From: Diphasiastrum complanatum
Lineage: Eukaryota > Streptophyta > Lycopodiopsida > Lycopodiales > Lycopodiaceae
DNA: 64,000 nt
Direction: 5' to 3'
Assembly: GCA_029204225.1 (NCBI GenBank)
Contig: CM055110.1
Location: 39,993,515 to 40,057,514, forward strand
The notes below the pieces were generated by a model. That model had not been told where the DNA came from. It did no database searches and worked only from the letters and a program-made list of their open reading frames with translations. Position numbers and translations under genes: made by a program. Positions 8,330 through 63,378 of this stretch are shown here, one piece after another (within the stretch, counting starts at the first letter, position 1; every line of letters starts with the position of its first letter).

Positions 8330-8734
8330 CTTTGCATTCATTAGAGGACTTCTAAATAAAAAAAAGGGCCCTTTGTAAAGATTCTCTTTATATTTTTTCT
8401 CAAATTTTTCTTACAAATGGACCAATCAAAACACTCAAATTTGAAATCTACGTAACGTAACTTCTTGAGTCCACATTAAAGATGGCATAACTTTTTACTG
8501 GTAATTCCGATTTTAGTGGAGTTTGGTGCGTTGAAAAGCACTCGTGCGATTTCCAATGTATGTTACATGACATACTTCTGAGCAACAATAAAAAATTTAT
8601 GGTGAGTCAAAGCTATTAGTTGAAAATAGTGTATAATATTTTAATAATTCTTAAGGGATCTTTGCACGGGTTCATATTAGGGCCTTTTGGAGCTCAAAAC
8701 TCCCCTAATGTTGGATCCATTTGATGGTGGTTTT

Positions 8735-21746: not shown

Positions 21747-22553
21747 GAATGAAACATAACTAATACACAACACAAAAACTAAGACCCTGCAAATTAAAGT
21801 AGCATGTATAGATTAAGATCATACAAATTCAAGTAGCATGAACTAGTAAGCATGAAACATAAATCAAGATACTATGAATTAGGGTAGCATAAACTAGTGA
21901 TCATGAAACATAAATGAATGGCATCATAATTACGTGCACACGCACACACACACCCTAAACCCTGAACCCTAAACCCTAAACACACACGCAGAGAAAAAAA
22001 AAATGAGAACATAGTAGAGTGCTAATCAAAACTCCCGAACTGTACAATTATATCCTATTCTAGAATGTTACCACATGCTCTCTCCCTGTCATTAGAGAAA
22101 TTCTCAATATCAAAAAGACCCTTTGTAAAGATACTTTTATTTTTTTTCTTTAGTTTCGACCATCACCAGGCCCAATCAAAATGCACAGATTTGAAATCTA
22201 CGTAACGTAGTTCAAATTAACTGAGAAATAAAAATGCAATATAGAAAACTTTAAAATTAGTATCTGGGCAGCATGGACGTATCCCATTGATTTCTTCTTC
22301 CTGCCCGACACGTGCTAATCTACCCGACGTCAATACCTCAAGTTAAATCTACTTGACTATGCTGGTTAGTATAATGAAATTTTCTAACTATACTAGTTAC
22401 AATTATAGAAATATAGTATGTACAGTTACATAAAATATGGTATACGGAGTAACTGTGACTATGTTGGCATTCACATTAGATTAAATGTGATACGAAAAAT
22501 TGAAATTAAGTATCATATCAGAGATTTTTGGCGCCCAAGCTTTGAAAATAGCA

Positions 22554-23926
22554 ATGGCAAGGAGACCCAATTCTACAATCGAGTCTGTGATTCTTTACAA
22601 TGAGAAAGACGAAGCTGATAACTGGAAGCCAACAAAATATATGAAGAATTCATGGGTATTGCTGCATCCATCATCAAAGGGCAATTTTCGACAAAAGAAA
22701 AGAGCAAAAATGACTTACAAATCTTATTGGAAAGCAAAAATTTTGGAGTTTAAGACTATCCCGGGAGGTCAATCGATATCAGAAGTCTTAGTACAACATG
22801 TATATATGCATTCAAAAATCAAAGTACATGATATCAATCCTCATGATCATCAAAAATATAATTATAAGTATATCAAAACATATGCATTCTACAGCAATCA
22901 TAGGTGATTTTCTTTATTGATGCTCTTCAGATTATGATTTAAATGCTTCAACATTGTTATTTTCTTTCAGATTTATATCCATCATGCATAAGTGAATGGG
23001 AGCCCGCAAAATCACTTGTAGGAATATTAGACGTGATTCACTCTGATGTTGGAAAGTTGTAATACAGAGGAAGAAGTCCAAAGGAACTTGCAGATTGTGG
23101 TATCTATTTTTATGAATCTTTATATACGCTACAAATAGTTGGAGGTTTTGGCAAGCTCGAAGCGATACCATTGCCTAGTTTTCAAAGTGATGAGTGGCCT
23201 ACTCCTGATAGCATTGTTTCTGAATCCTTGAGATGCAAGCTACTCATTGATATTAAAAATGCTATGAAGATAAGCACATGCTCGAAAATTGTTCACCTAA
23301 GTTGGTTTATCTCATTACATATATTTGTTGATTTTTTCTCAAGTGCTAATGTTCTTAGGACACCAACTTTATTTGTTTGCAAGGATTTATCATATGAGAC
23401 TTTGTCAGATTGCATGGATCAAGGCTGGGATAGTAAAACAAATAATGACATAGAATGCAGGATTAAAAAGTCCTCAATGATCTTTCGTTATCATATCAAA
23501 AAGCAAATGCTCAGTCTCACATTTAGCTACCAGAGATACAAGAAAATTGAAGGTACATGGCTACCACTGGATCAAGACTTTGAACTAAATGGTCACACAA
23601 ACCGAATGGAGATAAGCATTATTTACAATGAGGAATATTTGACTACGGTTGAGGTGGAAGAGCATTGGAAGCTTGACTTTATTAGAACAGAGCTCATGCT
23701 ATTACAAACCAATCTACCAACATATTTCAGATTTATCATCAACGGAAGACTCGTAAGTACTTTATGTTTATTTCCATTTCAAAATAGAACAAATAAATAG
23801 AAAATGTCATCATTTACAATTGCACATTCACTAATATTTGTCATGTCACAGATGCGAAAAAGACAGGAGCTGATAATGTGCTGCAAAGATCTACCTACAA
23901 CAATCACCATTGTGAGAGAACACTAG
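22554..23926 (+). pseudogene. Decayed multi-exon gene, weakly BAH-like N-terminal part
   Basis: Candidate start 22,554 (MARRPNSTIE). Exon 1 runs to about 22,903 with an AG|GTGATT donor. A good acceptor (TTTTCTTTCAG) ends at 22,970. A long exon reaches 23,752 with a perfect GTAAGT donor, the acceptor GTCACAG ends at 23,851, and the last exon ends at TAG 23,924-23,926. The 23,752/23,852 junction keeps frame (INGRL then MRKRQELIM). The first junction does not match phase, and an in-frame TAA lies at 23,060-23,062, so it is broken. Exon 1 has SYWKAKILEF, then EVLVQHVYMHS and YAFYSNH, a pattern reminiscent of BAH domains; this is weak. The C-terminus (LPTYFRFIINGRL, then RKRQE) suggests a small alpha/beta domain I cannot name. 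It is convergent with the H3-Ulp1 gene, with about 195 bp between stops. Confidence 0.55.
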
Positions 23927-24121
23927 TTTCAAATAAACTTTAGTAAAATTCTGTGTATACACTCTTTCATTCAATAAATGAAAGCCCAAGTTGGGCATCA
24001 GTACATGTATTTTGTGCTCCCAAATTCATAAAATGGAGCATTATTTGATATATCAATGTTTATTTATCTATGAATTCTATACATGTATTTTTGTTCTATG
24101 CTATCTGTATTTGTTCTGATC

Positions 24122-25880
24122 TTAATTTGGTATAACTACATCATCCTTTGCACCATTATCAATAACGGGAGGCTGAAGCCTTACCCTAGCTAGTATACTC
24201 AGGATAATTTCTTGTCTAAATCTGTACACCTGGCTTGATGTGTACTCAGAAAGTATAAACTGCAAGATAGAACATTCATGTATTAGTAATGGCTAAAAAC
24301 ATCAATAAAATAGAAAACTAATCATGATTCCAAAAATAAGAATAAACAGAATTTATTACCTTAGAAATATCAACATCTTCCTGAAGGTTGAACCACTCAA
24401 AAAATAACTTGGCATTGTATAATGTGTACCACCCACAACTGAATGAATCATTTTGCTGAGGTGACTGCAAAAAAAGTTAGCACACAAGAAATCAATTATG
24501 AAACATAATGAATTAGAATGAAACAAATACATTAGAATACTGATTTCAAAATACTATTAAGAAAGACAAAATTTACCTCCAAACTGACAATCTGCCAGTC
24601 CACTAAATGGGGAACATCTGTAGGAATATATTTACTTAAATATGTAAGGTAAATATCTACATCCTTATGCGTATTGCTCGTCGAATTCATCTTGACACAA
24701 AAACCTTTAATACTATTATCTATAGATCTCTAAATAGTAATCACGTTTAAACTCCAGTGGTCACTGCAAAATAAGATTGAAATTTCTTTAGCTGCAATTC
24801 TAAAAACTATTTCCATTGACAATGCCAATGTTAATGCATAAAACAAGAAGAAGCATTTAGTATATCTTACTTGGTATGATAAGGGATGAGCAAATATTTT
24901 GTTGTTTGTGTGAATCCACTAGTTAGACACTGTGACAATGTGTCATTATTCTCCTTGAAGGCCAGAAGCAAAAAATTACTCAGCACCAACAACTCATTGG
25001 ATGAATATCTTGCAATGTCATATTGCAACAGTGTAAGCCCGGACCCTATCACAGGATCACTGATAGAAGCTCGTCTGTCTTTGAGATCCAAACAATCAAG
25101 AACTCTATAATTTATACTAAAATCAAGTTCATCTAGTCTAAAACAAAAAGGAGTACCAATTGTATCTATAGCATCGGATATGTCCTTCTCAAATTTAAGA
25201 TAGTCATCGGAATCTATATATGTATAAATTATTGAGGGAGGAGGAGGAGGTGAATGTGTAGTATCTACAGGGATTGAAGGGGTATCCAAAATAGATGTAG
25301 CTATATTTACAACAGTATCAAGAGCAGCGTTATCTACAATTGATTTCGGGTTAGCGTTTAGGGTTTCTGTGGTGCCTACCCTCCTTACTTTCTTCGGAGC
25401 TCTCTTGGGTGTTGTCTGCTTCCTAGGTCTCTTGGTAGGAAGATCAGTCCTATCTAGAGGAGTTGGTCTGGGAGCAGCAGGCTGAGCTACATGCAATTTG
25501 CAAAACCTCTCCCTCATTCTCATCAGGAGTTGAAAATCCTTGGGCATTATGGTGACTCTCTTGGAATGGATCGCTAGCAAAAATGAATCTTCGAAAAACA
25601 GGCTTATGTAATCTTTAGCAGCCTCCTGAAGGCACTAAAGAGCACTAGGTGTGAATCTAATCAACTGTTTGAGATCATTTCTAGTTATGTTTTGGACAGC
25701 ACGGTAGAATGGAGCTCTTGGAATCAATAGAGCAATGGATCTCTGATACTTATGTATCTCAGAAAGCCACCTGCTGCGGTTGAACGTTCTAGGTCTGGCA
25801 GGAGGTGTAATGGCAACCGTAGAAGCTGAGGATGAGCCAACAGAGAAGGAGGCCCTCCTTGTCTGCTTTCTCCTATCCAT
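24122..25880 (-). pseudogene. CENH3-like histone H3 fold fused to Ulp1/SENP-type protease
   Basis: Four exons: 25,880-24,871; 24,763-24,577; 24,464-24,360; 24,259-24,122. All introns are GT-AG and all phases agree, giving about 479 codons. N-terminus MDRRKQTRRASFS recalls an H3 tail. RWLSEIHKYQRS, LLIPRAPFYRAV, RFTPSAL-stop-CLQEA and [16 protein letters not shown] follow the H3 fold; the LLIP.A.F wording is closest to CENH3. A basic linker ([18 protein letters not shown]) and a Pro/Thr-rich stretch follow. The C-terminus has [20 protein letters not shown] (catalytic His), an Asp in RSIDNS, and SPQQNDSFSCGWYTLY (Gln and catalytic Cys), the Ulp1 order, with a final LSILARVRLQPP helix. Two in-frame TAG codons (25,637-25,635 and 24,732-24,730) mean this copy is probably a pseudogene. 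A partial copy is at 63,379-64,000. The Ulp1 assignment is strong and the H3 assignment is strong; fusion into one transcript is inferred from a shared frame and splice phase. Confidence 0.8.
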
Positions 25881-26710
25881 GGATGTGTACTATGGGATAG
25901 TGGACTTGTGCGTGACGGCTAGGATGAGCAGGGAAAGATGATAAAGCACCCACAGAAGACCGATATGTACGGACAAAATGTACGGTATATCGGACCTATG
26001 CGAGCTGATTACAAGAGAGATAGATTAGTATTGAAGAAAGATGCACAAGTGCGATACAAGGAGACACGTAGGCAGATGTATCGGACCTGTGCGCATGGAA
26101 GGTGTTAGGAAGAATATCGATTGCGAAGGATGCGCAAAAGTGCGATATGTGGAGCAAAAAAAAAGTGAAAAAAATTCATCGAAGTTTGTGATTTTATATC
26201 GCAATTCGCACGTGCGAAAGAACGTCCTGTCACACGTGTGAGACTTGTACAGTCCAATGCAAAAGCGACACGTGTCACCCTGTCACTTTATACATGTGGG
26301 ATTTGTACGAACGAATGTGCGAGCGACATGTGTTGTCGAACAAATGAATGAACACGAGACACACGTACAGTTGTCATTTCACACGTGTCCAGGTGTCACC
26401 TCACACATGCCAGTTTCTGTAGTCCAATTGAAAGTAGACACGTGTCCTTTGACCGTTGCCACACATGCAAAAATTTAGTATAAAAGGCACGAAACCCAAT
26501 TAATTTTTTACTTTTGTCGTTCTCGAAATTTGTGGCATATCGGTCTTGTGCGCGCGCATTGTTGTCTGTTTGCTTCCAACGCTACCTACTTGCGCACAAG
26601 TGCGATATTCGGTATCAACCCGTCGTACATATCCCTCTTGTGCGCAATCTTGATAGTTAGTTTTGTTTCAGTTCTTCCTCATGCACAAGTGCGATATCTA
26701 CATTATTTCC
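25881..26710. promoter_or_regulatory. Divergent intergenic region with CACGTG palindromes and a repeated ~17-bp motif
   Basis: 830 bp between two divergent start codons. Five CACGTG cores, each in a longer palindrome: 26,205-26,218 (TTCGCACGTGCGAA), 26,231-26,240, 26,267-26,276, 26,381-26,388 and 26,437-26,446. CACGTG is the plant G-box/ABRE core. A motif GCGCACAAGTGCGATAT or close variant occurs directly at 26,043, 26,132, 26,592 and 26,683, and inverted (ATATCGG.C.TGTGCGC type) at 25,987, 26,079, 26,537 and 26,629. A TATA box (TATAAAAGG) at 26,479-26,487 faces the plus-strand gene. A shared bidirectional promoter is an inference. Confidence 0.6.
26479..26487 (+). promoter_or_regulatory. TATA box for the plus-strand gene
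   Basis: TATAAAAGG about 225 bp upstream of the ATG at 26,711, directly after the last CACGTG palindrome. Position and sequence fit a plant core promoter with a fairly long 5' UTR. Confidence 0.5.
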
Positions 26711-27064
26711 ATGGCCTCTTCATCAGGATCCTCACGAGATTCAGGCTTGAGTTCATTTCTTAGTGAATTTGGAATTACTGAAAATCTAGACTACTTCCAT
26801 AGCCTATTCAGGCCATATCTACATGTTTTCAGAACTGCACAACCAAATTCTGACGTATTTTATGAACATTATGTTAGATTCAAATATATGCTTAGTAAGT
26901 CTGTTTTCTCCATAGGTTCACTCCAATACATGTATTATACTGATCTTGTTCATTTCTTTCCAGCTTTCAAACATAGACTAGATAGAATGTTCACCAAATT
27001 GTTTGATCTTTTCAAAAGTAGTTCAACATGTCCTTATTGCAACAAGAAATGTCGATTGGTAGAA
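26711..27064 (+). pseudogene. 5' part of an unrecognised gene with a CPYC zinc-ribbon half-site, split by a gypsy element
   Basis: The ATG at 26,711 is in good context (CCATGGCC) and starts MASSSGSSRDSGLSSFLSEF. The frame runs open up to the gypsy insertion at 27,065. The sequence is rich in Phe/Tyr (YFHSLFRPYLHVF, YEHYVRFKYML, YYTDLVHFFPAFK) and then has STCPYCNKKCRLVE, a C-x2-C...C arrangement that could be half of a zinc ribbon. An upstream Met (26,663) is in frame but out of the better context. I do not recognise the family. Its continuation is at 37,252, past the element. The gypsy insertion alone would inactivate it. Confidence 0.6.
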
Positions 27065-27886
27065 TGTTGGGGGTATTCCCAACACAGTGTAAAAAAAATA
27101 AAATCATCCAATAAAATGTGTTGCGAGGGCATGGCATCCTGCGTGTATAAGCCCATGGCCCAATGAGCACGCAAGTAAAGTTGTAAATAAAATAAACTTG
27201 ACTTGGGCCTTGGAATTAAAAATAAAACTAGAGGCCCAAAGTCATTTTTAAACTTAGAGATTACTTTTTAGAGTTGGGTCCAAATTGGGACTCACATGAA
27301 TCTTGTGATCACCAATGTACTTTTTGTGGACCCTTGGATCAAGTTGGGTCCAAGATGAATGGATAGGATCATTGTGAATATTAGCCAATAGGATTGAGGG
27401 GCAAGGGCCTTTCCCATTTTATAAAAAGACACCATTTGTACACTATTTTCATGCTTAATGAGGAGGAGGAAACTCTACCAATTTTGGAAGAGAAACATCC
27501 TCATTTGCAATTCAATGCTTGCTATTGCTCTTGTTGTTTTCAATTGCTTTCAAGTTCATGCTTTTTTGGTTTCAATAGTTTATGTTTCTCCTTTAGCAAG
27601 TATAATGTGCATTTGAGCTAACCTCCACCCTCCCTCTATCTCTCTCTTCTATCTTCTTTTCCCTCCATCTTTTCTAATCATCCCCTTCCTTTCACCTACA
27701 ATCATGATGAATGTTAGTGTAGAGGAGTAGAGTTAAGGGAGAGTAGTGTTAGTGGTGAGTAGAGTTAAGGGAGAAAGTAGGAAACTAACTAGAAATAGCA
27801 TCTATGCATAGTTAGGTACCTATCCAATGATCTAACCCTTGTTGACAGACGGGAGGGCTATACTACGCAAGACCTTTGACCCTACA
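27065..27886 (+). repeat. 5' LTR of the gypsy element
   Basis: 822 bp, TG...CA. It contains a CCAAT box near 27,385 and a TATA box (TATAAAAAG) at 27,420-27,428. The 75-aa frame inside it also occurs in the other LTR and is not a gene. Confidence 0.95.
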
Positions 27887-27887
27887 G

Positions 27888-27905
27888 TGGCACTGTTGCC
27901 GGGGA
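27888..27905 (+). promoter_or_regulatory. Primer-binding site of the gypsy element
   Basis: TGGCACTGTTGCCGGGGA one base after the LTR end. Athila/Tat elements typically carry TGGCGCCGTTGCCGGGGA here; two bases differ. Confidence 0.85.
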
Positions 27906-28750
27906 TAGGTTTCCACTAACTAATTTAGCTGCATTTTAGCTATTTTCTTGCTTTTTAGGGTAGTTTTAGGTAGAGTTTTGGGTGTTTAGAGTTAGTTTTC
28001 TGTATTTTTTTGTGTTTGGAATGTTCACAGCCAGTGGAAGAGGTGTGAGAGGGTAGAGGAGGTCCTGAACAACCTCTAAGGGCTTGAAACCCAAAAAACA
28101 CACCAATCTGTATTTTGGAGAGAAAAAGAGCCTAAAATCTCATCAGATTTTTATATCTCAAGAATCAGTGAGAATTAACCCTTGCATGACAAGCAGCAGC
28201 TCCAGGGTACTGTCTCAGACCTACATAGAAGCCTGCAAGAGTTAGTTCCAAGCAGATTGTAAAAATCAGAGAAAAATCAAAAAAAATTCAAAAAACCCTT
28301 GAAAAAATTCAAATCTTCATAAGAATTCTCGCAAAGCCCTCTGAAGTTTTATCTCAGTGAGACCAGGACACAGAGAAGCTTGCGAGAGTTCCCAGTGAAA
28401 AAAAGATGGGAAAGTACAAGTGAACCCTCGCAGACAGCAAAATTTTCAGTTCTAGTGGTCAAGAACTCTCACAGAGGATTTTGAAGTTTCATCTCAGTGA
28501 GACAAGGACACAGAAGAGCTTGCAAGAATTAGTCTGATTCCAGTGAGCAGAAAATTGGATTTAAGTGTGAAAAAATCACTAAAAAGTGAAGATCCAACAA
28601 ATCCTTCCAGTAAGAACTCTCGTAGACCCTCTTAATCGATTCAGAATCGCACAAGAGAATCCTTGCAGACTAGATCAGTGGAAAGATCTGCATCAGATCC
28701 AGCTACTGTCAAAATCTCAGGTCAATTAGTGCAAGGAGTAAAAACAGTAG

Positions 28751-29035
28751 ATGGAGCAACTTACGGCACAGTTTGACCAAAAACTGAAAGTCTTACAAGG
28801 AGCTATAGCAGTAATGCCACATCAACCGGAACCAAACCAACTGCAGTATCCAAGATGGGAGAATGTATGGTGTTCAGTGTGCACGCAAAACCATACAACG
28901 AATGAGTGTCCAGTCCTAAAGCAAAATCTTAGACTGACACATAGATTATGCCATCTGTGCAATGCAACATCGCACGATATGACATTTTGCCCGTTCAATT
29001 TCCGGATTGTTCAACAGAAAAGAAGTCCTTATTAG
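28751..29035 (+). pseudogene. Gypsy Gag fragment with cysteine motifs
   Basis: A 94-aa frame starting MEQLTAQFDQKLKVLQGAI. It has WCSVC...H...C and LCHLC...H...C arrangements, i.e. two zinc-knuckle-like C-x2-C-x(n)-H-x(n)-C units. It lies after an approximately 850-bp leader (27,906-28,750) that shows no coding homology. It is probably the surviving nucleocapsid part of Gag, with the capsid region lost. Confidence 0.6.
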
Positions 29036-29239
29036 AATTCTTATCCTTACCATCAAGGGGCACCCAACACAACACCAAGGTACAGCGCACCAAATCAACC
29101 ATAGCGTAAGGCCTTACGTGCTCCACCAGGGCCAGCCAATCAACAAGTGGCCCATGTAAACCTGACAACAACGGAACCAGAGATGCAAATGCCACCTCAG
29201 CCTGAGTAGCAGCAATGGTACGGACCGGATGAACCATTT

Positions 29240-29527
29240 ATGGATCCTTCCATAAATGAATATATCGCGGCCTATGCAACTCAAACTCAGCGTCAAGGCG
29301 GAAGAAACTACGGCTGCTATGGATGCGGCGAAGGACACAGAATTGCAGAATGTCCCTACAAGGGACAATATACATCCTTCTGCCGAGAATACAGTTATGG
29401 ACATTGTTACAAGAATTGTCCATTTAAACCTGGAACTAGTGCACCTTTTAACTTCATTGCAATACAACAACCAACAGTTCTAGCAGGATGCCATCGGAAG
29501 GACGACAATTCCACGCTCATGTGTTAG
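29240..29527 (+). pseudogene. Gypsy Gag zinc-knuckle region
   Basis: A 95-aa frame with GCYGCGEGHRIAECPYKG (perfect CCHC knuckle) followed by a second cysteine cluster (FCREYSYGHCYKNCPFK). It continues the Gag reading after stops between 29,035 and 29,240. Confidence 0.65.
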
Positions 29528-29784
29528 CTGTTATGTGAGCGCAGAAGAGGAAGGAAGTGGCTCCCTCACCACCACCATCGGTCACTGACGACCATCCCTC
29601 AACTTCACTGCCATATTCGAATGTGAGGGAAGAAAGAAGACAGTACCAGAAAATAAGACACTGGGTATAGAAAGCACAAGCGGCGAAAAAAGAGCAAGAA
29701 AGAGATAATCCTACGGAACCTTCAGTTGGCGTCGAACGGGAACCGCAAATGGGCTCACCACTGTGAACTGATTAGAATGATCAG

Positions 29785-30780
29785 TTGCACGAACATGAAC
29801 CACCTTTTCACATGGTGGAGCCCGAGGAACCACGCACTGAAAGGCTTGCACTTTTACTGCCAAGTCGTGTTAGTTTACCACTCGGAGAACTACTACGAAT
29901 TGCACCACAAGTGAAAAGCCTTCTAGCTGAATGGGCCAAAGCGAATGAGGATCCAGTACCGCCTGAGCCCATATATTGTACAAGCTATGAAGAAACAAAT
30001 AATGTCCTTTACATTGGAGCAGCATGGGAAAGTGAGGAACACAACATCACTTTGCCAATCAAACACAAGAGATACGAGGACGAGGCGACAATGGTAGATG
30101 GAGAATCAGGTGTCAATTTGATCTCCACTACTTTGTATGAAAAATGGGATCTACAAGGATTGAAGCCAGCAAGATTCGCCATCAAACTAGCAGATCAATC
30201 TTGTGTGAAACCAAAAGGTGTAGTTGCCGATATCCCTATAAAGATAGCGGGCATGCAGTTTGTGATTACTTTTATAGTCATGGATATACCTAAATCCCCA
30301 TATGCATACCATGTTTTACTGGGAAGACCATGGTTGAGGACTGCGCAAGTAGTACACAACTGGGGTACGGGAAAACTCACCTTCGAGAATAGAGAGCAGG
30401 CTGTAAAGGTTTATCCAACCACATGGGTGGTGAAACCTATTGCACCCAAAGCTGATGACGAATCATCCACAACAGATCACACGATTGATCGCCCAAGGGC
30501 AGCCAAGGGGGGCCACTATCATTCAGAGACGAATGTCGTGATATGGATGGATGCATTAGCAACTATTGACTGCCAGGCATGTCAATATGAATCAAATCCA
30601 GAACCTAGTACATCTTCACCCAAGTTTTACACTATGGACACACCCATCACATTTGGGATGAATATGATAAACGTAGCATGGCTGTCAGTGGAACCTATTG
30701 AGAACCCAGTGGATGATGATTTGGTCCCTTGGCAACATGCTCTAACTTATAATAAAGAGATTGAACTGACTGATGAATAG
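29785..30780 (+). pseudogene. Gypsy retropepsin region
   Basis: A 331-aa frame. The catalytic loop reads VDGESGVNLIS where Athila/Tat proteases have VDGGAxxN/DSGAxxN, so the active-site turn looks altered. The flap and C-terminal Gly-containing segment (YHVLLGRPWLR near 190-200) is typical. The following TGKLTFENREQAVKVYPTTW fits the pre-RT region. The frame then runs into an acidic linker and stops at 30,780. A further linker frame (30,796-31,224, Lys/Ser-rich) precedes the integrase. No RT motif such as a YxDD box occurs. Confidence 0.75.
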
Positions 30781-31299
30781 GTCCTACTACACCACATGGA
30801 CCCAGATCGTTACGGAATCAGGAAAGTACCAGCTCAACCACCACAAAAGTCTACTATGGCGAAGGTCTCAAGGATCGATCCACCCAAGGCACCTGCGAAT
30901 AAGAAGAATCAGTTGCAGCAGCGCTACAACCAGGTGATCCATTGGAGTGATCTACCCGATGAGGCGATAGCTACAGTGGATGTGGATATTCACAACCATG
31001 AGGCGAATGTCACGACAGTCGTAATGAAGGACAACAAGGACGAATCCACCAAGATGACAAAAAAGAGCAAAAATAAAGTATTGGAATCCTTGAAGTCAAT
31101 CAAGTTGGACTCAGATATAGCGTCATCTTCTACACAGGTGACAGAAAATCAAAAAATGACCAGTCGGGCTAAGATATATGCTGAAAGAGGAATCTCGACG
31201 AGCGTCAATTCACGAGATGCCTAAGACTTTCAAGAACTGATGTGCGCAAAAGGGCAAGGAGACTAACGAGATTAAATTACGACTTACTACACCCAGTCT

Positions 31300-32174
31300 T
31301 AGCCCAAGCACCATTCAAAAAGTGGAGATTGGATGACATTGGTCCAATTCACCCTACAGCAAGGAGTTCCTAGGCTCGATACATAATCATAGCCACAGAC
31401 TACCTCACCAAATGGGTTGAAGCCAATGCAGTAAGAGTAGCTGATGCTAGGACCACTGCCAAGTTCCTTTATGAAAATATCATTATACGCTTCGGATGCT
31501 CGGTGGAACAAGGTAGCGATCGCGAAAGCCATTTCATCAACGAGACCATCAAGGTCCTGTTGGAGGAATTTCGTGATCCATAGAACCAGTACGCCTTATT
31601 ATCCTCCTGGTAATGGGCAAGCAGAATCATCCAATAAGATCATGTGTAGCGTGCTCACAAAAACAGTTGAAGCTAGCATATCAGATTGGGAACATAAGTT
31701 GCATGCTGTACTGTGGGCATTCAGGACAACATATAGAGGAAGAACTGATCAAACTCCCTTCCAATTGGTATATGGTCAGGATGCTGTAATGCCTTAGAGT
31801 TTTTAGTTTTTTCATTAAGGATTGCCACCACGCAACGTCTTAATGAGTCCAAATCTCTACAACTATGCCACGAAGCTCTGCATAAACTTTGTGAAACACG
31901 CTTACTAGTTGTGCACGCACTGGCAGCTCAAAAGGAAAGATGCAAGGCATGGCATGATCATAGGTTACAAAAGAAGGATCTTTGCTCCGGAGATCTGGTC
32001 CTAATGTATAAAACCAAGGCGATCAAGGAAAAGTTAAAATTCACAGGCGAAGGTGCTTATAGGATCAAGAAAATTCTTAATCATGGAGCCGTGAATTTGG
32101 AAAATCTAGATGGGACACCATTCGATACACCCATCAACGGTAGCCGGTTGCACAAATACTGGCCACCGCAGTAA
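31300..32174 (+). pseudogene. Gypsy integrase core and C-terminal domain, multiple frames
   Basis: Core motifs in order: KKWRLDDIGPIHP (first Asp), ATDYLTKWVEANAV, SDRESHFINE (second Asp) near 31,530, then in another frame PYYPPGNGQAESSNK (catalytic Glu) at about 31,610. It continues to FRTTYRGRTDQTPFQLVYGQ. A C-terminal part (31,911-32,174) has GDLVLMYKTKAIKEKL, then GAYRIKKILNHGAVNLENLDG, the GPY/F-like module of Athila/Tat integrases. Stops at about 31,372, 31,582 and 31,797 break it. The N-terminal HHCC zinc finger is missing. Confidence 0.8.
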
Positions 32175-33258
32175 GATAGATCTAGATTGGCGATGACACG
32201 TTACAAAAAGCTATTCTACTAAACCATCACCGCTAGATCTAAGAAGGTCAAGCCAAATCAAGCTAGATCCATCTAGATTCAGCCAGATCTGGCAAGATCG
32301 GAAAAATCCATCAGGATCCATATCCAGATAGGATCAAGAAGGAAACAGATCATCAGACTAACTGATGGATCTACTACCAAGTATCCATCAGAATTTCCAG
32401 AGAACCACCAACAGTCAGATCAAGCATGGATGAAGTTGATTACCAATTTACAAAAGTTAAAAATCAGAACATCTCGAGATCTCATCTAAAAACACTCTGA
32501 AAGAGCACTTTTTTCATGATTTTTTGGGATCCCCTGGGAGAGAGCTCTTGAAACTTGGACAGTCACCAGATTTGACCCAGATGCATCCATAAAAATCTCT
32601 GTGAGAGTTCTTGATGGAGGAATCATCATTTTTTAGTGTAAGCGAGAGTTCTCAAAAGCTAAATTTTTAGAACCCTCGCAAAGCCTCAAGATCATCTTAC
32701 CAACCCTCGCAATGTGTCTAAATGAAATCAGAGCAGTAAAATTAGTCTGCCTACATGGTTTGATCTTTAAAATCCAATCACAGGGACAAGTTGTGCAAGA
32801 GATCACTTCCTGCAAGAGTTGAACCCTTGCAGACAGCCTAAACCCTCGCAAAACCTTCGCATAACAGACAAATCACGTTAGGAACTCTCGCAAACTTCCC
32901 TAAGGTCTTAGAATTTTGTGAAGAAGGTGCCTGCCAAAATTTGGGTGGAACTAAACAAGGGAAAGTGGATTTCACCTAATACGCACTCTAAATTTCGCTA
33001 TATAAGGGCTGAATTTGAGTCATTTGTCACCTTTGCTAGCGAAGCTCTGCCGAAATTTATACTGAAATTACCAAGTTCTTTGTTTGCAACTAAACTTTCT
33101 ACCAGCTATCATCTGATCATACTGAACACCGATCTGCGCTCTGAACTACACTTCTTGTCATCCAACACTCGTTATTCACAGTTTTCTGCCGCTTCCACAC
33201 CCTTTTCCATTTTCCACCATTTTTTCTATTTTTCTGTCCTCTAATCATCACTGCTAAC

Positions 33259-36200
33259 ATGGCCTCCTCATCCTCTGAAGACTCTGGCGCCAAACAGGTG
33301 ATCCAACGTGACATCCTTGAGGCCACACAGATTTGGCCTCTACCCTCTGACGCTCTAATCCAACCATGGCTATAGACAGCCGGTCCACTTCTAGCGGCAA
33401 TGGATTTTTACCTGACGCTCTTCAATTCTGAGATTAACATGGGCCTCGCCCTTCACGCCTACGCCACCTAGGATGAGAAAAAGCCTCGTTTCCACTTTCT
33501 GTACCAAGGTACCACATACAAGGTCAGGATTAATGCTGACTCAATGGTTACCATTGGCATTATGTCCGGTGATCATCAGCCCTTCTCCCATCACAATGCC
33601 AAAACTCTGATCAAGCCTTTCGTCACCCAAACTGCACCAAAAATCCCATACAGACTAACAATGGTTACCTATAGAGGCTACCACAGAACCCGTCATTCAG
33701 ACGGCTGCGCATCTGTTGAATAACTTTCTGGTTATTTCAATATTTCGCAAGGACAGAATCCAATCTAAGCTGTTGAGTCAGATAGTGGAATCCTTTCTGG
33801 AATTTCCTAGCCTCTCCGTTGTGCCATACAACTGGCATAGCTTCCTCCTTCGAGAACTATCCAACTCCATCAAAACCCAACAACCATGAGCGAATCGTAG
33901 CAGGCCCCCTGTTGTGTAAATTTGCCTATGCACTTCTCGAGGCAAAGGTGCGCGGTTTTCAACGCTCATCCCTTTTGTCTACCCTCATTCCACACACTAA
34001 CCTTTATCTGCCATCTCAAGCATCCACCTCCTCCCAACCTGCAGTTATTAACACAACGGCCAGCAAACGAATGCGTGGAGCTGCCTCTACATCCACATCT
34101 CCACCTGCTACCCAAAGATGTCCCTCCACTACCGCACTAACCAATCCATCAACCACTGCCACGTCTTCTTCCGTGCAACCCCCCACTCCGATTTCTGTTG
34201 TCGCTACCTCTCTTTCTGTTCCATCCACATTTGTTTCTGTCTCCATCCCCATTTCTTCTGTTGATACCACTCCTATTTCTCTTCCAGTATCCACTAATCC
34301 ATCCATCACGATCGCATCTTCCATCACTCTTGCCGCCATCGTTGCTTCCATTCCATTCAATCCTTCTGATTCTCAATTGTCTCCCGACACTCTGGCGTGG
34401 ATGCAAGTCATCAAATTTTCACCCCCACGTCGGACACTTTTTGTTCCATCCTCACCATCTTCCATACTCCACACCACCCTCTAGTTCTCTTCTGTTCTTC
34501 CCATCATCTCGTTTAGACAAACTGTCCTCACCCTTGTTTCCACAGTTGTTTCTCAAACCCCACCTGCTTCGCCAACAAAGGTTGCCGAGGGCAACCAACC
34601 GTTGCTTGATGACACATTTGTCCAAACAATGTTTGTACCATTGCTAGATTGAGCTGATCCTACCGCCCCAGATGGCATCAGGTCCAATGAGAACCTGATA
34701 GAAGACAATGACGACGGTACTCTACAAGTCATCGGGGCCGATACAACACAAGCCCCTGCCAGTGCCAGTGTACCGGCTGCTCCTATAGATCTAACGACGA
34801 CGTACCAAACTCTGATAAAATACATCCTGGATATGGTAGCAGCCAAAGCCATTCTGAAAAGCAAGGTACTACATCTGACGAAGAGTAACACACATCTGCG
34901 AGCAGACCTCACCAAGCTGCAGCAAGAGCTGATTTTGGCTCAACAACACGAACAAGCAGGGCACCAGGAGATTGCCAAGCTACAGCAGAAGGAGAAGGGC
35001 CTCAACAACTATACCCAAAGCCTCTTCAAAGTGCTGACTGAGGCATCCATGAAGGTGCGAGAGCTTCAATCTGAAGCGTCTCAACGGCTTGCTCCCATCC
35101 AAGCACAACTAAGCCTTTTGGAAACAGAAAATACGCACTTGAGGACGGAGGTCAAAGCCCTACAAGAAGAAAAGCTCATCTGGTTAGCTCAATCTGCACC
35201 GGACTCAAGGCCACTTTCTCAATCAAAAATGAATCTTCTACGACGTCAGGTGCAGGTTTATAGCCAAACCTTAAACAACTACTAGGCAGAGTTCACTAAA
35301 TATCGGACAAGCACAACGCACGAGCTCGCCCAGGCCAAGCAAGCCCTCAAGGCCTGTCAGAAATTCATGGAAACGAAGGCCCAGCCCACCCCATGGTAAT
35401 TCCACTGCCACCTACTTTTGATTGTGCACAGGCCAGTACAAGCCAAGACCAGAGCTAGCAGGCAGCAGGAGGATTTCAACAAAATCAAGGGTCCGAAGGC
35501 CAGGACCAAGAGCAAACAGATACGGCTGCTGAGACGCGAGACCAGGGCCAAGTCGCAACTACCAGCCAAAGCCAAGCCACATCATTCATAGATTCGCGTA
35601 CGATATTTGCCAGCCGGGCCTTCCGTAAACCAAAGTCCGTGGAGGAGAAAATCAACGAATTTTTGTCAAAGTATTTCCACAAGTCATCAAGAGGCGGTTG
35701 TCAGATATCATTTTCTGCTTAGACAATAAAGGGCAACGAACTGCAAGTATTACCTGCCCTCCGACCACAACCAGAGTGGCGTCAGCAAATGTTCGAAAGA
35801 GACTCTGCGGCCATCAGGGCCTACGTGACAAGTCCACAACAATTACGGGTGAACGCGCACTTTCTGCCATGTCCACAAAGATCCAAATGGGCAGAATGCG
35901 GCATCCCTCTGGACAAGATCACACTACAGAATTTTAATTGGCTGGTAATACCATCAGAATATAGGTGGACCACGGATGTAGACGCCAGAAGGGATCTCAC
36001 CGCGTTCGCCAACCAATATATCAATTGTCCTGATCCAACAGTCCGCGTGACAACCACTTACGCCTGGGACTTGGAACATGTGATGGGGATCAAAACTAAA
36101 TGGGACAATTTTCTCCCATCCATATTTTTTGATGTTAATAAGGCGCTACCTTCAGACAAAATTGAAGATCAGCTACCAATAGCTCAGGTCTATTATTGAG

Positions 36201-36420
36201 CTGCGCTTCAAGGTGATCCATGGACACGCCGATTCCAAACATGGGTCGACCAAGATTGGCTGCGGGGGGCCTACAAGTCTCTTCACACGCCAAAGGACTT
36301 GAAGAAATTGGACTGCCTCAACTTTATGGAGGATGTCACCACCTACCTCATCCAGCAAAGGCAGGCGAAGAAAACGCTCTACTAAACCGACAGAGTGCTG
36401 AGGGACCGACACTACTTCAG
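33259..36420 (+). pseudogene. Gypsy 3' extra ORF (env-position), decayed, with coiled coil
   Basis: Starts at 33,259 (MASSSSEDSGAKQVIQRDIL). In sequence, across several frames: an N-terminal region; a Ser/Thr/Pro-rich stretch (33,970-34,480); a long coiled coil (34,833-35,285: heptad-like LTKSNTHLRADLTKLQQEL, LLETENTHLRTEVKALQEE); a low-complexity Gln/Arg region; and a C-terminal module (about 35,600-36,420) with LRPQPEWRQQMF, QRSKWAECG and QLPIAQVYY. No signal peptide or membrane segment is evident. The C-terminal module has a clear relative at 39,282-40,274 on the minus strand, so it belongs to a family of such ORFs. Function unknown. Between integrase and this ORF (32,175-33,258) I see only non-coding sequence. 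Confidence 0.6.
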
Positions 36421-36431
36421 GCCGTGGGTCA

Positions 36432-37251
36432 TGTTGGGGGTATTCCCAACAAAGTGTAAATAAATAAAATCATCCAATAAAATGTGTTGCGAGGGCATGG
36501 CATCTTGCGCGCATAAGCCCATGGCCCAATGAGCATGCAAGTAAAGTTGTAAATAAAATAAACTTGACTTGGGCCTTGGAATTAAAATAAAACTAGAGGC
36601 CCAAAGTCATTTTTAAACTTAGAGATTACTTTTTAGAGTTGGGTCCAAATTGGGACTCACATGAATCTTGTGATCACCAATGTACTTTTTGTGGACCCTT
36701 GGATCAAGTTGGGTCCAAGATGAATGGATAGGATCATTGTGAATATTAGCCAATAGGATTGAGGGGCAAAGGCCTTTCCCATTTTATAAAAAGACACCAT
36801 TTGTACACTATTTTCATGCTTAATGAGGAGGAGGAAACTCTACCAATTTTGGAAGAGAAGCATCCTCATTTGCAATTCAATGCTTGCTATTGCTCTTGTT
36901 GTTTTCAATTGCTTTCAAGTTCATGCTTTTTTGGTTTCAATAGTTTATGTTTCTCCTTTAGCAAGTATAATGTGCATTTGAGCTAACCTCCACCCTCCCT
37001 CTGTCTCTCTCTTCTATCTTCTTTTCCCTCCATCTTTTCTAATCATCCCCTTCCTTTCACCTACAATCATGATGAATGTTAGTGTAGAGGAGTAGAGTTA
37101 AGGGAGAGTAGTGTTAGTGGTGAGTAGAGTTAAGGGAGAAAGTAGGAAACTAACTAAAAATAGCATCTATGTATAGCTAGGTACCTATCCAGTGATCTAA
37201 CCCTTGTTGATAGGCGGGAGGGCTATATTACGCAAGATCTTCGACCGTACG
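36432..37251 (+). repeat. 3' LTR of the gypsy element
   Basis: 820 bp, nearly identical to 27,065-27,886. The terminal CA is mutated to CG just before the TAGAA duplication. Confidence 0.95.
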
Positions 37252-38322
37252 TAGAATATCAGAGTGGTTTCGTACTTTTCCTTTTACTTCAGATCCCAGA
37301 TGATGAGGAAGTATCTTTATTGATGTAAATACTGATGTTCTCCGGGATTCTTTTATCGGCCAAAATACATCTGCTAATGAATCGATCCCGATAGAGGAGT
37401 CTAAATGTCTTTTCAATTTGCCTATATATTATATTAATGACGATCTATATTTTATTACTGCTGATCTATGTAAAATTTTTTACTATCGTGAAGATGAGGT
37501 TCTATGTTTATTATCCAGCACAATTTCCGAATTTTCCGACTTTGTAGATTTTGAAACAGATGACCTTGTTGATGGTATTGATTTTGATGATGAGGAGGGA
37601 CTTATGACCAATGAAGAATGTTGACTAAGGCTTTATTAAATATTGCTGAGGATGGGCGAGGCAGACCATCCGATGAGAAATTCACGACATTTCAATCCCA
37701 GATGGGCTTCCCTCATTCATCATTAATGCATTTCACTGATGATTACACTTCAGTACGTGGTCATTATATTGATCATCCTGATTTGGTTGCTGCTGATGAT
37801 GAAAAATGTGTAAGTGTTTAAACTTCCTTGCATTACAATGTTTTTAATCACTGAATATGTTTTTGCTAACATATTTCCTATTGCAGGATGGTCTCATAAT
37901 TGATGATTTTGTTGCAAGACGAGGTGATTTCAGACAACACGCATTCTCGTTCCAGAGGGATAGTGGACTTGGCCACTATCTTAGGCATTTCCTGAAGAAT
38001 GAGATCTGTATTCCTCATTCCAAGTTGAGCCCAGTTGGGGAGAGTCTTATAATGACAGAAAGCTTTATCATTTTACCTAGGAGGACATAAATTTGTTAAG
38101 ACAAATAAGATCATTTTTGTCAAAAGATCTTATGTTTTGAACATTTTAGGTTTTACTAATGGGAATGTTCCTTTAAAGAGCTCTCATTATTCATTGTATT
38201 CCACTTATATTGAGCTTAGTGGAAATAAGGATAATGCACATCTATTGGATGCATACGCTAGCAGAGAATTTCTTCATGACAATACTGCCATAGAATCTGA
38301 CACACGATCTGATGATGAATAG
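37252..38322 (+). pseudogene. 3' part of the gene split by the gypsy element, decayed
   Basis: Continues from 27,064 directly after the TAGAA duplication. Pieces in several frames: about 37,324-37,623 (NLPIYYINDDLYFITADLCK, then acidic DFETDDLVDGIDFDDEEG); 37,618-37,809 (GRPSDEKFTTFQSQMGFPHS); an intron 37,810-37,886 with GTAAGT donor and TTGCAG acceptor that keeps frame; then DGLIIDDFVARRGDFRQHAF to 38,090. A one-base shift leads into HKFVKTNKIIFVKRSYVLNI and the end at 38,322 (SDTRSDDE). So at least three frameshifts/stops. Very acidic overall; family not recognised. The conserved intron shows it was a real spliced gene and not retrotransposon sequence. Confidence 0.55.
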
Positions 38323-38599
38323 TTGACACTTTGTATTTTGTTATAATACAATCAATACATTTACATTGAGTATTTCCCTTCTTTTGTTCAATGAATTTGC
38401 AAAGCAATTTTGAACATGTCATGGTTTGATGACAATGATGATCTTCTACTCAATAATCATCTAGTTTTCTCTTTCTGTATGAACTTGGATGCTTTTCTAA
38501 ACTTGTTGTATTGTGTGGACTTTGTTGGCTATTCGTATCCCTCAACTCTGGCTATGGCTCCAACTAACGAGTGCTATGGTGGACTCCCAACTAGAACAC

Positions 38600-39281
38600 G
38601 TTATGGCTCCGACTAGGCACTGTGGCTTTCCCAACCAATGGCTATGGCTTCCAACTAACCGAGAGGTTGAAGGATGAGAAGATCTACAGTGAGTGGGTGA
38701 GTATTTCGGCAAGATCCACTCTACTCTCGATTCTCTACTTAGGAACTGACTCAAATGACAGCTTAACCTAATTAAATGATGGCTTAACCTAAAATCTCCT
38801 CCTCTACGGCTTTCTCTGCTAGAGAATGGAGGGCCTAGATTAACTTAACCTGTTGCCAGATGAATAATATACAATACAATGTGAAGTAACACAGTATACG
38901 AAACCACACAAGGGAGAACACTTAGAGAGAAAGATAGGCATGTATTGCAAATGAGGTTCTTCCTCAAAATGGACTCTTCCACTCCTATATATACTTGGAG
39001 TAATGGTCACTTACAAGAAGGCACTATGGGACAAATAGGCCACATAGGCTTAACTTGGTACCATGGGACAAACCCCCAATGGACCATAAACAACTGAACT
39101 AACTTAAGTTGAACTTATTCAGACTAGTTTAAGTTTCAATCTTCTAGACTTAGGCTTAGAAGTAAACAACCTTAAGTCGTTATAACGTGGCGCAAAGGCC
39201 TAAACTTGACTGATCCAGTTCTAGGCTTAAGTCTGTATCTTTTTCAAGATGGCTCGAATATTCATAGATTATCAACCTACA
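38600..39281 (-). repeat. Possible LTR of a second gypsy-like element
   Basis: On the minus strand, a purine tract (CGGAGGGGATAA, 39,293-39,282) follows the stop of the 39,282-40,274 ORF. It is immediately followed by TGTAGGTTGAT, which is what a polypurine tract next to a 3' LTR start looks like. A TATATATA-type stretch occurs near 38,990. I could not find the other LTR or its outer end, so the left limit is approximate. Confidence 0.35.
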
Positions 39282-40274
39282 TTATCCCCTCCGTCAAAAT
39301 ATTGGCGGTCCCACGCCAATTGCCACTGCCTGTTGTCTTGTCTGGTCTTTCTTGCAGCTCTACATTGATGGCGACCCGGATTTTATGAACTTCTCTGGCA
39401 ATCTGTTCCATTCTCTCAAATCGAATTTTGCCCAAAAATGGTTGCGGCCGATAGTAATCAAGCATGTTCTGTAAAAATCCGTACACGTACCAAGATTCAA
39501 CCATGTCAATGTGAAGTTCGTTGGTGATCATTGTCCGATAGTAAAGCCTTGCCACATTGATGTGATCCATGGGTATGTTTAGGGGCTTATTTAGATCCAA
39601 AACTATTGGCGGCAAATCTCTATCCCAGAAACAATTTAAGGTAGAAAGGAATGATATTAGGCCGCAATGATCTGCAAAGTACCTAATGTGGCGGTCCGGA
39701 ATTATATGATGTCTCTGGTAGAAATAGTTACAATTGGCTAAAAAATCAGCCGCTGGGTCATCGGTCTGAACTTCTTTAGGTAGAATTGGCCAATATATTT
39801 TATTAAGAATCCTTTATGGTGCGAATACTTCTCTGCGCCTTATGGGATAATATGTTGGATTGACACGCATGTAAGTTGGTGCCGCGATATAGTGCTCAAA
39901 AGATGTGCATTTTTCAACATCATAGCACGTCGCCACTGAGGTTGCGGCTCCAATGCTAAAACTTTCTGCTTGTGAGATTTACATATCGTGAAATTGAAAA
40001 GAGTGTACCCGCCTCGGTCCTCCCAGTTTGGATATGCTTTATTAAACTCCTCTGACATTACCATCTATCGGCTAGGATTCTTCGGCATGATTCTGTGTCG
40101 TACCTCTGTAGTTGTGGTAAGTGTGGGTGGTGGAGGGTTTGGTATGGTTGTGAAAAGTTCACGGGGGAGGGTTGGGTATTTGCGGAGTAGATAAACAGTG
40201 GATGGTGAATGAGGTTGAGTGTCGAGGTGGTGAGGTGATTGTTCATGTGGTGGGGAGAGAGAGGGGTGTGTCAT
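39282..40274 (-). pseudogene. Relative of the gypsy 3' extra ORF
   Basis: Minus-strand frames 40,274-40,065 (Pro/Thr/His-rich), 40,064-39,840 and 39,615-39,277, plus intervening sequence, parallel the C-terminal module of the gypsy ORF. Matches are VLALEPQPQWRRAMM against VLPALRPQPEWRQQMF; a preceding RGGYTLFNFT against RGGCQISFS; and PMDHINVARLYYRT against DQLPIAQVYYRA. Order and spacing agree. It is thus the 3' ORF of a second, diverged element of this type, read on the opposite strand. Stops near 39,840 and 39,812 break it. The 40,275-41,020 stretch beyond it shows nothing I can name. Confidence 0.6.
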
Positions 40275-41027
40275 CGAGTGAGGGTGATGAGGCTTGATAG
40301 GTGGTATCAGGTTGAGTGGCAGTGGGGTTAGGCTCTTCAGCTGAGATGCCTCGTTCGTGGTTCATGGTAGTACCCCCTTGTGTGCTTTGAGGTTCCACCA
40401 TTGCTGAGTGATACCCTGGATTATCTCGTTGTTGTCCTATGTAGCGCGAAGGTCCATCCTGTTGTCTATGGTGCTTGGCGTGTGTTTCTTCATGCTTTGT
40501 GTGTAATGTTGGTAGCTACTGGCGTAATGCTTTGGTGTAATGTTTTTAGCTATCCTCAATCTGTGTGTTGAGCGCATTTTGATTTGCTAGAGTGGCCTAC
40601 TGCAACTGTTGTGCTTGCACCTGATTCGCCATCAGTACCTGAGTTAACTTCTGATAGGAAGCGAGAGGTATTCATATTTTCATTCTCGTGGAAGGAATGC
40701 ATATGTAAACATTTTGCAATTTTTCCTGATTCGAATTTGGGGATGGCGGTCATATTCTAGATCCAGTGAAAATATTGTCCTTTTCGTAACTAGAGGGAAT
40801 ATTTTTGAATTTAGTCAAGTTATACTACGAATTGTTTACAATTCTTTATTAGTGACTATAGACACTGTGGTTAGATCATTGGAAGTTGGGGAGGCCTCAG
40901 GAGTGGTGGGGGCAAGCAAATAAACAATATTGTTTTTTTTATTTTGATATTTTTCTATATCCTACATGGCATTCCCTAAAGGGTCTTTTTGATATTGAGA
41001 AATCCTCTAATGACCATTTGAGCTTTC

Positions 41028-61983: not shown

Positions 61984-63378
61984 CTAAACATCATGCCAAG
62001 CCATGGATTCCAAGGCATTTTGTGCACTTGAAAATACATCAATGAAAATATTAAGTGCATAAATAATGTTGCCAAAGACAACTTGTCTTGCTTGATCCAT
62101 ATGATTGAGCCTAGATGGCTCCATCTTGGTACTCAAGATTCTTCTTGGAGTCCTCGGGTCTTGAGCTTGATCCTCCACTTGACTTGACTCCAAAACATCA
62201 ATGAATTGAATAATGTGTTGATCCAAAGGTGCTTCTTCAAGTTTACAAATCTTCCACTCTTGAAAGATCACATTTCCACCATTGACAAATTCTTTGGTTG
62301 AAAACAAGTAGATTCTACAATCTCTACTTGAAGAGCAAAACACTACCATTATTCCTATCATTGAAATAGGATAATCTGTGGTCCTTACATTGGAATGATC
62401 ATGCACAAAGCATGTGGACACAAAGATTTTCAAAGCAAATGATGTTTCATCTTTTATGACTCTATTCAGACTATTACAAAAATAGTTATCCAATGAAATT
62501 GCTTTATCAACAACAAATGTAGATTTCAAAGCATCCCATTTCATTGTCTTGTCATACAAAGTAATAAACACCATGGATCTTAAAGGTAAGAAACAAGTCA
62601 CCTCATGTCTACTTATACTTTCCAAAAAGTATTCAAAGATAGTAGACTCTCCAATGCTCACCACCCTTGCAAGATGCACACTTGAATGGACAATTTGCAT
62701 GCAATTTGATGACTCGGCCATTGTCATTGAGGACTCCCTTGGAACTCTCATGCTTTGAGGCTGATCCTCAATATCTTCCTCCTTTTGATGGTCCTCCTCA
62801 ATGCAAGCAAGATCACACTTTGTCAAGATCTCCTTTTGAGTGATCTCCTCATTTGCCAAGCTCATTCTTTCAAAAGCAACACTAGCTTCCAACTTAAACA
62901 ATCTTCCATTCTTAAATCCCTTTGCAATGCAAACACCATTCTTCAAGATGAAACAAACACCATGCTTAAAGTGGACATCCAAACCACTTTCTAAGAGTAA
63001 ACCAACACTAAGCATATTCTTGGTGATTGATGGTACATAAAGGACATTTTTTAGATCCATGCATTTTGAGGATTCTAGACACAAAGAGATGGTGCCAACA
63101 CCATCTATCCTACACTCTTCATCATTTGCAGTAAAGACAAACGTTTTAGCAGCATTGAAAGAGTGTAAGGTTGAGAAAAAGTCCTTTTCACAAGACATGT
63201 GAGAGCTAGCCCCACTGTCGATCCACCAATTGTCTCTTGAATTGCTATTGATTGTCGGTGAGGATGTAGATGCCATCAAGAATACATCTACTTCATCCTC
63301 CTCCTCCTCCTTTGCAAGGTTTCCTTGTTTGTCCTCCTCCACTTGTGCTCTTAGCCTCTTGTAGCATTCAGATGCATA
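61984..63378 (-). CDS. Copia B protease plus non-canonical pol segment, 5' truncated
   Basis: About 465 aa. It starts inside the zinc knuckle (ASECYKRL...) and has the retropepsin NWWIDSGASSHM near residue 53. The same protease-flanking segment (LYVPSITKNMLSVG) follows, and then the same non-integrase extension as copia A. Unlike copia A, the frame stays open to the shared end (WHDV) through the point where copia A is frameshifted. This shows the extension was maintained as coding sequence. No integrase, RT or RNase H. Confidence 0.85.
   Translation of the reverse strand, partial: YASECYKRLRAQVEEDKQGNLAKEEEEDEVDVFLMASTSSPTINSNSRDNWWIDSGASSHMSCEKDFFSTLHSFNAAKTFVFTANDEECRIDGVGTISLCLESSKCMDLKNVLYVPSITKNMLSVGLLLESGLDVHFKHGVCFILKNGVCIAKGFKNGRLFKLEASVAFERMSLANEEITQKEILTKCDLACIEEDHQKEEDIEDQPQSMRVPRESSMTMAESSNCMQIVHSSVHLARVVSIGESTIFEYFLESISRHEVTCFLPLRSMVFITLYDKTMKWDALKSTFVVDKAISLDNYFCNSLNRVIKDETSFALKIFVSTCFVHDHSNVRTTDYPISMIGIMVVFCSSSRDCRIYLFSTKEFVNGGNVIFQEWKICKLEEAPLDQHIIQFIDVLESSQVEDQAQDPRTPRRILSTKMEPSRLNHMDQARQVVFGNIIYALNIFIDVFSSAQNALESMAWHDV

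Follow-up and report, generated by a model that had tools for sequence, protein, structure and literature searches.

A histone H3 fold fused to a Ulp1-type domain in a multi-gene DNA transposon of the lycophyte Diphasiastrum complanatum

A gene whose predicted product joins a histone H3 fold, through a linker, to a Ulp1/C48-type domain is carried by a DNA transposon of the lycophyte Diphasiastrum complanatum. It was followed up from a 64,000-nucleotide stretch of contig CM055110.1 (assembly GCA_029204225.1, positions 39993515-40057514; hereafter the window), in which it runs from 25880 to 24122 on the minus strand as four exons and three GT-AG introns in a single frame. The frame and introns of this predicted single protein are shown to be kept in several subfamilies, and, judged from the genomic copies, the fusion is real, repeated, and mobile. 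It almost certainly represents a genuine protein of a mobile element. We read it as an accessory gene within a cut-and-paste DNA transposon that has several genes and a RAG1/Transib-like transposase; the product of the accessory gene would be a transposon anti-silencing factor acting through nucleosomes, and a probability of roughly 0.45 is assigned to this function.

Exon 1 of the window gene (24871..25880; all of its exons lie on the minus strand) encodes a putative H3 tail remnant, the H3 fold, a basic and proline-rich linker, and the N-terminal half of the Ulp1 domain. The N-terminus of the window family, MDRRKQTRR, looks like a decayed H3 tail. Exon 2 (24577..24763) begins with HWSL, exon 3 (24360..24464) begins with SPQQNDSFSCGWY, and exon 4 (24122..24259) ends in TAA. 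With stops read as X, the fusion matched PF00125 at 84.8 bits (E 7.3e-24, residues 27-123) and PF02902 at 36.2 bits (E 7.3e-9, residues 327-450), exceeding the curated Pfam cut-offs of 26.4 and 20.7 bits, respectively. These searches bear out two statements of the initial annotation, which was made from the window sequence: that an H3 fold lies in one minus-strand frame, and that three phase-keeping GT-AG introns lead from it into a Ulp1 domain. The described frame stood as far as the joining of H3 and Ulp1 across the introns is concerned; two in-frame TAG codons had been overlooked, one within the H3 fold (25635..25637) and one directly after HWSLNVITI in exon 2 (24730..24732), both on the minus strand. 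Because of these two stops the window copy is unable to yield the fusion protein in the standard code, and by its sequence it is a dead pseudogene copy.

Intact copies, for which the annotation had pointed to the rest of the genome, were found. The genome searched comprised 1.74 Gb in 5,176 contigs. At least 153 matches to PF00125 were obtained with 150 of 6,325 candidates scored, these counts being lower bounds, and 20 loci were retrieved that had been chosen for their long open frames. Seven of them (L012, L013, L014, L015, L018, L025, and L027) hold close relatives of the window gene, approximately 72-82% identical to it across exon 1. At L022 there are two diverged relatives, and the remaining 12 loci belong to another family, referred to here as the sister family. 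The exon borders of the window gene were transferred to six of the close relatives; L015 was excluded, the stretch of exons 2-4 being missing there. L014 and L027 carry the entire 470-aa frame without a stop and with splice sites as in the window. L012, L013, L018, and L025 are damaged by stops, frameshifts, or a deletion, and one acceptor is lost in L013 and one donor in L025. A genome search with PF02902 returned 3 matches (150 of 520 candidates scored), which are unusable as a count because the Ulp1 domain is both weak and split between exons.

The fusion gene is one of four genes, in the order geneC, fusion, geneB, and transposase, in a DNA transposon of approximately 9 kb. The ends of the element are formed by a 35-bp inverted repeat, CATTAGAGGAGTTCTCAATATCAAAAAGACCCTTT (CATTAG...), which was defined from the sharp common ends of longer aligned stretches. 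Allowing up to 3 mismatches, the repeat has 2,378 matches in the genome (1,154 + 1,224), a number that takes in solo ends and short derivatives, and a reversed control has 0. Three complete elements (L033, L034, and L035) were chosen, among the first places listed, solely because two repeats face each other there within less than 10 kb. In all three, geneC, H3-Ulp1 sequence, geneB, and transposase were found in identical order and orientation. Fusion and transposase also occur in one element in E014 and E027. That the fusion might be carried by a transposon had been raised in the annotation; the terminal inverted repeats that bound the gene, together with the presence of H3 and Ulp1 sequence in 3/3 elements picked by their repeats, confirm this.

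The transposase is predicted to adopt a RAG1/Transib-like fold, as modelled for its homologue P0040 (predicted local distance difference test score, pLDDT, 71; predicted template modelling score, pTM, 0.67). The CMCT clade is marked by C(2)C and H(3-4)H motifs after the second Asp of the transposase, according to its description (PMC12730594). P0040 displays this signature with Asp270 in GDLK, CLYC at 290-293, and HICTLH at 330-335; the last Glu is assumed. The element thereby resembles the members of the clade (EnSpm/CACTA, Mirage, Chapaev, Transib, Plavaka, ESTA, and RAG1) in its motifs and fold, but differs from them in lacking a Pfam or PDB sequence match and a consistent target-site duplication and in having CATTAG termini. 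CACTA/EnSpm elements have CACTA termini and a 2-3 bp duplication, Transib elements have CACWRTG termini and a 5-bp target-site duplication, and Mutator-like elements produce a duplication of 9-11 bp. Among seven pairs of ends (window, E014, E027, L033, L034, L035, and P4), the flanking bases common to both ends numbered 0-3: TCA in L034, one base in three pairs, and none in three. Membership in Transib was rejected on the absence of a 5-bp duplication in these pairs and on termini that are CATTAG, not CACWRTG; membership in CACTA/EnSpm was rejected on the CATTAG termini and on the sharing of 3 bp in only 1/7 pairs. The Mutator-like, Kaonashi-type affiliation mentioned in the annotation was likewise contradicted, by the RAG1/Transib-like transposase, by the lack of a MULE (Mutator-like element) Pfam domain, and by the 0-3 bp of flank sharing. 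Pfam searches with the transposase pieces and with 17 homologues matched no MULE family. Aligned to PDB sequences the transposase had no match of note, and against viral contigs 10 stretches fitted a pattern, of which 0 were confirmed by tblastn. Separately, the tail of P0074 (O6H91_19G041100, a D. complanatum protein annotated as calmodulin-like) is a transposase piece, 86% identical over 11% of the query, and is by its sequence element DNA within a host gene or gene model.

A related repeat at window position 21217 reads like the empty site of the window element, with no base gained or lost. Because of this repeat and the 0-3 bp of flank sharing, insertion without target-site duplication is likely. 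Two further pairs, P5 and P6 (L038-L041), were left out of the count, as their flanks are inverted copies of each other and not the two ends of one element; E013 and E025 were left out, as one end of each is not fixed. At L038-L041, the terminal repeats face each other and the outer flanks (40 bases) are exact or near-exact inverted copies, which points to large inverted duplications or assembly palindromes.

Codon comparison of exon 1 drew on eight copies from three subfamilies, giving 28 pairs that are not independent of one another. For the H3 fold, the ratio of nonsynonymous to synonymous substitution rates (dN/dS) was 0.07-0.15 in 17/17 pairs between subfamilies; the 11 same-subfamily pairs gave 0.21-1.51. 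The N-terminal half of Ulp1 gave 0.13-0.62 between subfamilies. Pooled over the 28 pairs, the ratio of nonsynonymous to synonymous differences per site (pN/pS) was 0.18 for the H3 fold (codon bootstrap 0.12-0.29), 0.37 for the Ulp1 N-half (0.26-0.57), 0.77 for the linker (0.47-1.27), and 0.53 for the tail (0.23-1.55), placing the H3 fold under tighter constraint than the Ulp1 half. Constraint between subfamilies with loose change within them is, at the codon level, the trace of a functional transposon protein, and these comparisons show a putative fusion protein under constraint during the mobile life of the element and decaying once it has inserted. For transposase, geneB, and geneC compared with E014, defined dN/dS values were 0.21-0.70 in E013, E025, and L034 and 0.31-3.16 in L033 and L035. 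The window gave 0.32 for geneB exon 1 and 0.74 and 0.22 for geneC, the latter for its 3' part; its values for transposase and geneB exon 3 were misaligned and were not used.

Between subfamilies, the synonymous rate dS is 0.5-0.8 for the H3 fold versus 0.1-0.4 for the Ulp1 N-half of the same genes. When E014 was scanned against E025, E013, and L034, identity was 74-89% for a block made up of intergenic region, H3 fold, and linker, and 88-98% for geneC and the rest of the fusion gene. Between subfamilies this block is more diverged than the remainder of the right half of the element. An H3-containing module was thus probably exchanged between element lineages.

The histone part had initially been called CENH3-like, a description that the comparisons do not support. 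Among its PDB matches, the best 60 of 176 are all canonical H3s, and in a phmmer search of the PDB the N-terminal part of L027 matched best (86.7 bits) a chain named Histone H3.3C. Loop 1 of the transposon H3 is one residue longer than that of H3 and is without the R-W stretch of the CENH3 type. In a 17-row tree, with CENH3 rows entered by hand and three ungrouped rows not counted, the eight transposon H3 rows fall on one side of a branch, away from the CENH3/CENP-A rows, with weak support (72/84; 86% of 200 bootstrap trees). The transposon rows have W-L and LIPRxxF in common. A single capture of H3 is therefore likely but, at this level of tree support, unproven. Like CENH3/CENP-A, the transposon protein would be an H3 variant that specialises chromatin, and its LLIP..PF is reminiscent of plant CENH3; unlike in CENH3, loop 1 and the weakly supported tree do not place it in that group. 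The CENH3 of the host was not found among the histone matches read, no search of the genome having been aimed at it. Exon-split histone matches at L042 and L043 are intron-bearing H3 genes, of the H3.3 type by reading, and P0001 and P0002 were rejected as relatives, being tandem canonical H3s. The H3 protein P0022 (391 aa) combines LIPRAPF and a MARTKQT tail with a long extension at its C-terminus; it lies on a very long branch with two plant CENH3 rows and may be another mobile or odd H3.

Under the proposed anti-silencing function, the H3 fold would pair with host H4 or with H3-H4 chaperones, and pairing with H4 would bring the fusion protein into or onto the nucleosomes of the element itself, where SUMO on silencing proteins would be removed or bound by the Ulp1 domain and the element would remain transcribed. 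The fusion would then be a histone-based counterpart of the VANC and KIU anti-silencing proteins of VANDAL elements. KIU/Kaonashi and VANC-bearing VANDAL elements, which are Mutator-like, are also multi-gene plant DNA transposons with one gene that contains a Ulp1 domain, and KIU carriers have been tied to hypomethylation of related elements, according to a 2026 review (PMC13317346). The present element differs from them in its RAG1/Transib-like transposase, its CATTAG inverted repeats, and the lack of a consistent target-site duplication. The word "histone" has 0 occurrences in the text of that review (PMC13317346).

Several observations weigh against this reading. The anti-silencing role rests on analogy. 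Most copies are broken, and only 2/7 aligned copies (the window and six relatives) are open throughout; L033 has no match for fusion exons 2-3, and L034 and L035 stop right behind the catalytic His (H*SL). Besides the dependence among the codon pairs, two pairs within one subfamily, L014-L027 and L014-L015, have an H3-fold dN/dS near 1.5, and the high dS of the H3 fold reflects an apparent mosaic history between subfamilies. For the linker and Ulp1 half, no protein was found at E 0.01 in a set of 5.8 billion proteins (1,044 candidates). Finally, at the position that resembles the DS of the SENP catalytic Asp, KMNS with Asn was found in 8/8 readable copies of the window family (window, L012, L013, L014, L018, L027, L034, and L035).

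SENP2 has LDSM where the window family has KMNS, and the alignment to SENP2 is not firm here. Of the other catalytic residues, the window copy and L014 retain His (HWSL), the oxyanion Gln (PQQN), and Cys (SCGW); the Cys motif reads NCGW in L027, the Cys is lost in L012, and L013 has a deletion. Close to HWSL the window does have an Asp, within IDNS, but other copies read V-N-N or V-I-N there. The initial claim of a catalytic His, Asp, and Cys was thus correct for His and Cys, in the window and L014, and unsupported for Asp within the limits of the alignment. Because Asn replaces the catalytic Asp in all readable copies, protease activity is unsure, and the nucleosome-targeted deSUMOylase envisaged in the annotation is conjectural, as the Asp wanted for such activity is Asn.

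The same gene could instead encode a transposition cofactor. Its H3 fold would dock the transposase complex on nucleosomes, for target choice or donor access, and its Ulp1 domain would act on SUMO of the transposase or of repair proteins. The RAG recombinase is tied to chromatin through the PHD finger of RAG2, and the fusion adjoins a RAG1/Transib-fold transposase in the three repeat-picked elements, E014, and E027. However, no feature indicates contact with the transposase, and the linker is not clearly constrained (its pN/pS interval being that given above), which leaves this role unlikely. A decoy function is slightly less likely again. Here the protein would sequester H4, H3 chaperones, or SUMO, with a Ulp1 domain that binds SUMO and does not cut. 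Both the Asn of the eight readable copies and the tighter constraint on the H3 fold than on the Ulp1 half are in keeping with a decoy; retention of Cys, His, and Gln in the window copy and L014 is not, and a viral Ulp1-like protease is known with Asn in its triad.

The sister family bears on the age of the association. The H3-fold gene at its 12 loci has 45-50% identity with that of the window across the fold. In the 9.9 kb taken from each locus, geneC was matched in 10/12 (approximately 26-34% identity), geneB in 10/12 (approximately 30%, weak), and the transposase in 7/12 (approximately 26-45%, with the element or P0040 as query); Ulp1 had no match in any of the 12. L011, L016, L017, and L021 have geneC, H3, geneB, and transposase in that order, and L020 has all four with the transposase inverted. 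The H3 gene and geneB are convergent in the sister family and divergent in the window family, which counts against a simple common layout. The sister terminus, CATTAGGGCCC..., has its first six bases in common with the window family. The sister H3 gene stops right behind the fold in 11/12 loci and reads on in L028. L009 has a 417-codon open frame that includes MARTKQTAR, the exact start of the H3 tail, and L016 has MAWTKQTAR, separated from the remainder by a stop. At L021, L016, L009, and nine other loci, the sister H3 fold comes last in a long protein rich in proline. In L022, the second copy matches H3 and Ulp1, and the first starts with MARTESTAR and is cut off where Ulp1 would start. Because both families carry an H3-fold gene, the H3 gene is, on these alignments, a long-standing component of such elements; Ulp1 was detected in the window family and L022. 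A broader and more doubtful proposal credits a lycophyte superfamily of RAG1/Transib-fold transposons with an H3 variant of its own. In one branch, where this variant has been fused to a SUMO protease, the fusion would form marked nucleosomes over the element and clear them of silencing, a kind of private chromatin.

Passive gene capture, in which pieces of host genes are merely carried, has a precedent in fungi. According to PMC6710886, Dothideomycete hAT transposons captured H3 and reached hundreds of copies; in Pseudocercospora fijiensis the captured copies were inactivated by repeat-induced point mutation (RIP), and in Pyrenophora tritici-repentis H3 was amplified to tens of copies, which may be active. 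The likeness lies in H3 coding sequence borne by a DNA transposon, but the fungal sequence is H3 itself, whereas here a divergent H3 fold is fused to Ulp1 in another type of transposon. Passive carriage is also at odds with between-subfamily purifying selection on the frame, with the retained introns, with fusion sequence in 3/3 repeat-picked elements, and with the occurrence of H3-fold genes in both element families although their transposases share no more than approximately 26-45% identity, and it is very improbable. Chance read-through between two unrelated neighbouring pseudogenes is scarcely credible: the window copy does have two stops and depends on predicted introns, but two copies, L014 and L027, have the entire frame open with identical joints, which rules such joining out unless the assembly is wrong.

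The preferred reading, an anti-silencing factor that would act through nucleosomes, can be set beside other transposons with chromatin-related cargo. Enzymes and DNA-binding proteins that counter silencing are already known from transposons. Ginger DNA transposons carry a Ulp1 domain and, to our knowledge, no histone. They are alike in the Ulp1 domain but unlike in their integrase-type transposase; one study of Ginger elements mentions Ulp1 21 times (PMC2836005). Fungal TET/JBP-bearing DNA transposons and SET-bearing transposons of Phytophthora encode proteins that act on chromatin or methylation, according to PMC12730594. Unlike the fusion, these are enzymes that act on DNA or histones and include no histone itself. 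No H3-Ulp1 fusion and no histone-encoding plant transposon was found in the literature searched, which was open PubMed Central, with subscription papers and preprints mostly outside. If the reading is true, it would represent a new route by which a selfish element influences chromatin, via the nucleosome itself, and a testable case of SUMO and H3 variants controlling transposons in an early vascular plant line. A plant-borne RAG1/Transib-fold transposase is also relevant to RAG recombinase history.

The window copy of the element, with its nested insertions, spans 22090..41012 as delimited by alignment to complete copies and by the terminal repeats, and is on the minus strand in the orientation of the fusion gene. 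Its CATTAG-type terminal inverted repeat lies at 22090..22124 (plus strand) and the opposite one at 40978..41012 (minus strand). GeneC (22554..23800, plus strand, approximate extent) has two or more exons, is convergent with the fusion gene, and was recognised from open reading frames and from matches in L033-L035, with weaker ones in the sister loci. Between the fusion gene and geneB lies a bidirectional intergenic region (25881..26710) with repeated CACGTGTC and GTGCGATA words. Each of these words has 4-5 sites in the window, whereas in 200 plain shuffles no non-palindromic 8-mer had more than 3, and 4/4 matches to GTGCGATA/TATCGCAC in the entire window fall inside this region. GeneB exon 1 (26711..27064, plus strand, MASSSGSSRDSGL...) is interrupted by a long terminal repeat (LTR) retrotransposon at 27065..37250, the extent of which is deduced from direct repeats and from the point at which the element is interrupted, and geneB continues at 37251..38526 on the plus strand. 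By reading, the nested retroelements and the introns of the window are plant-like. The transposase is not recognisable in the window copy: the position that it occupies in other copies (38527..40671) had no blastn match to the E014 or E025 elements. A second partial copy of the element, on the minus strand at 63376-64000, covers the region from the end of Ulp1 exon 2 to exon 4 with 87-88% identity and runs past the window edge. At 8339-8459, a 120-bp relic of an element terminus, 75-77% identical, possibly represents a short non-autonomous derivative.
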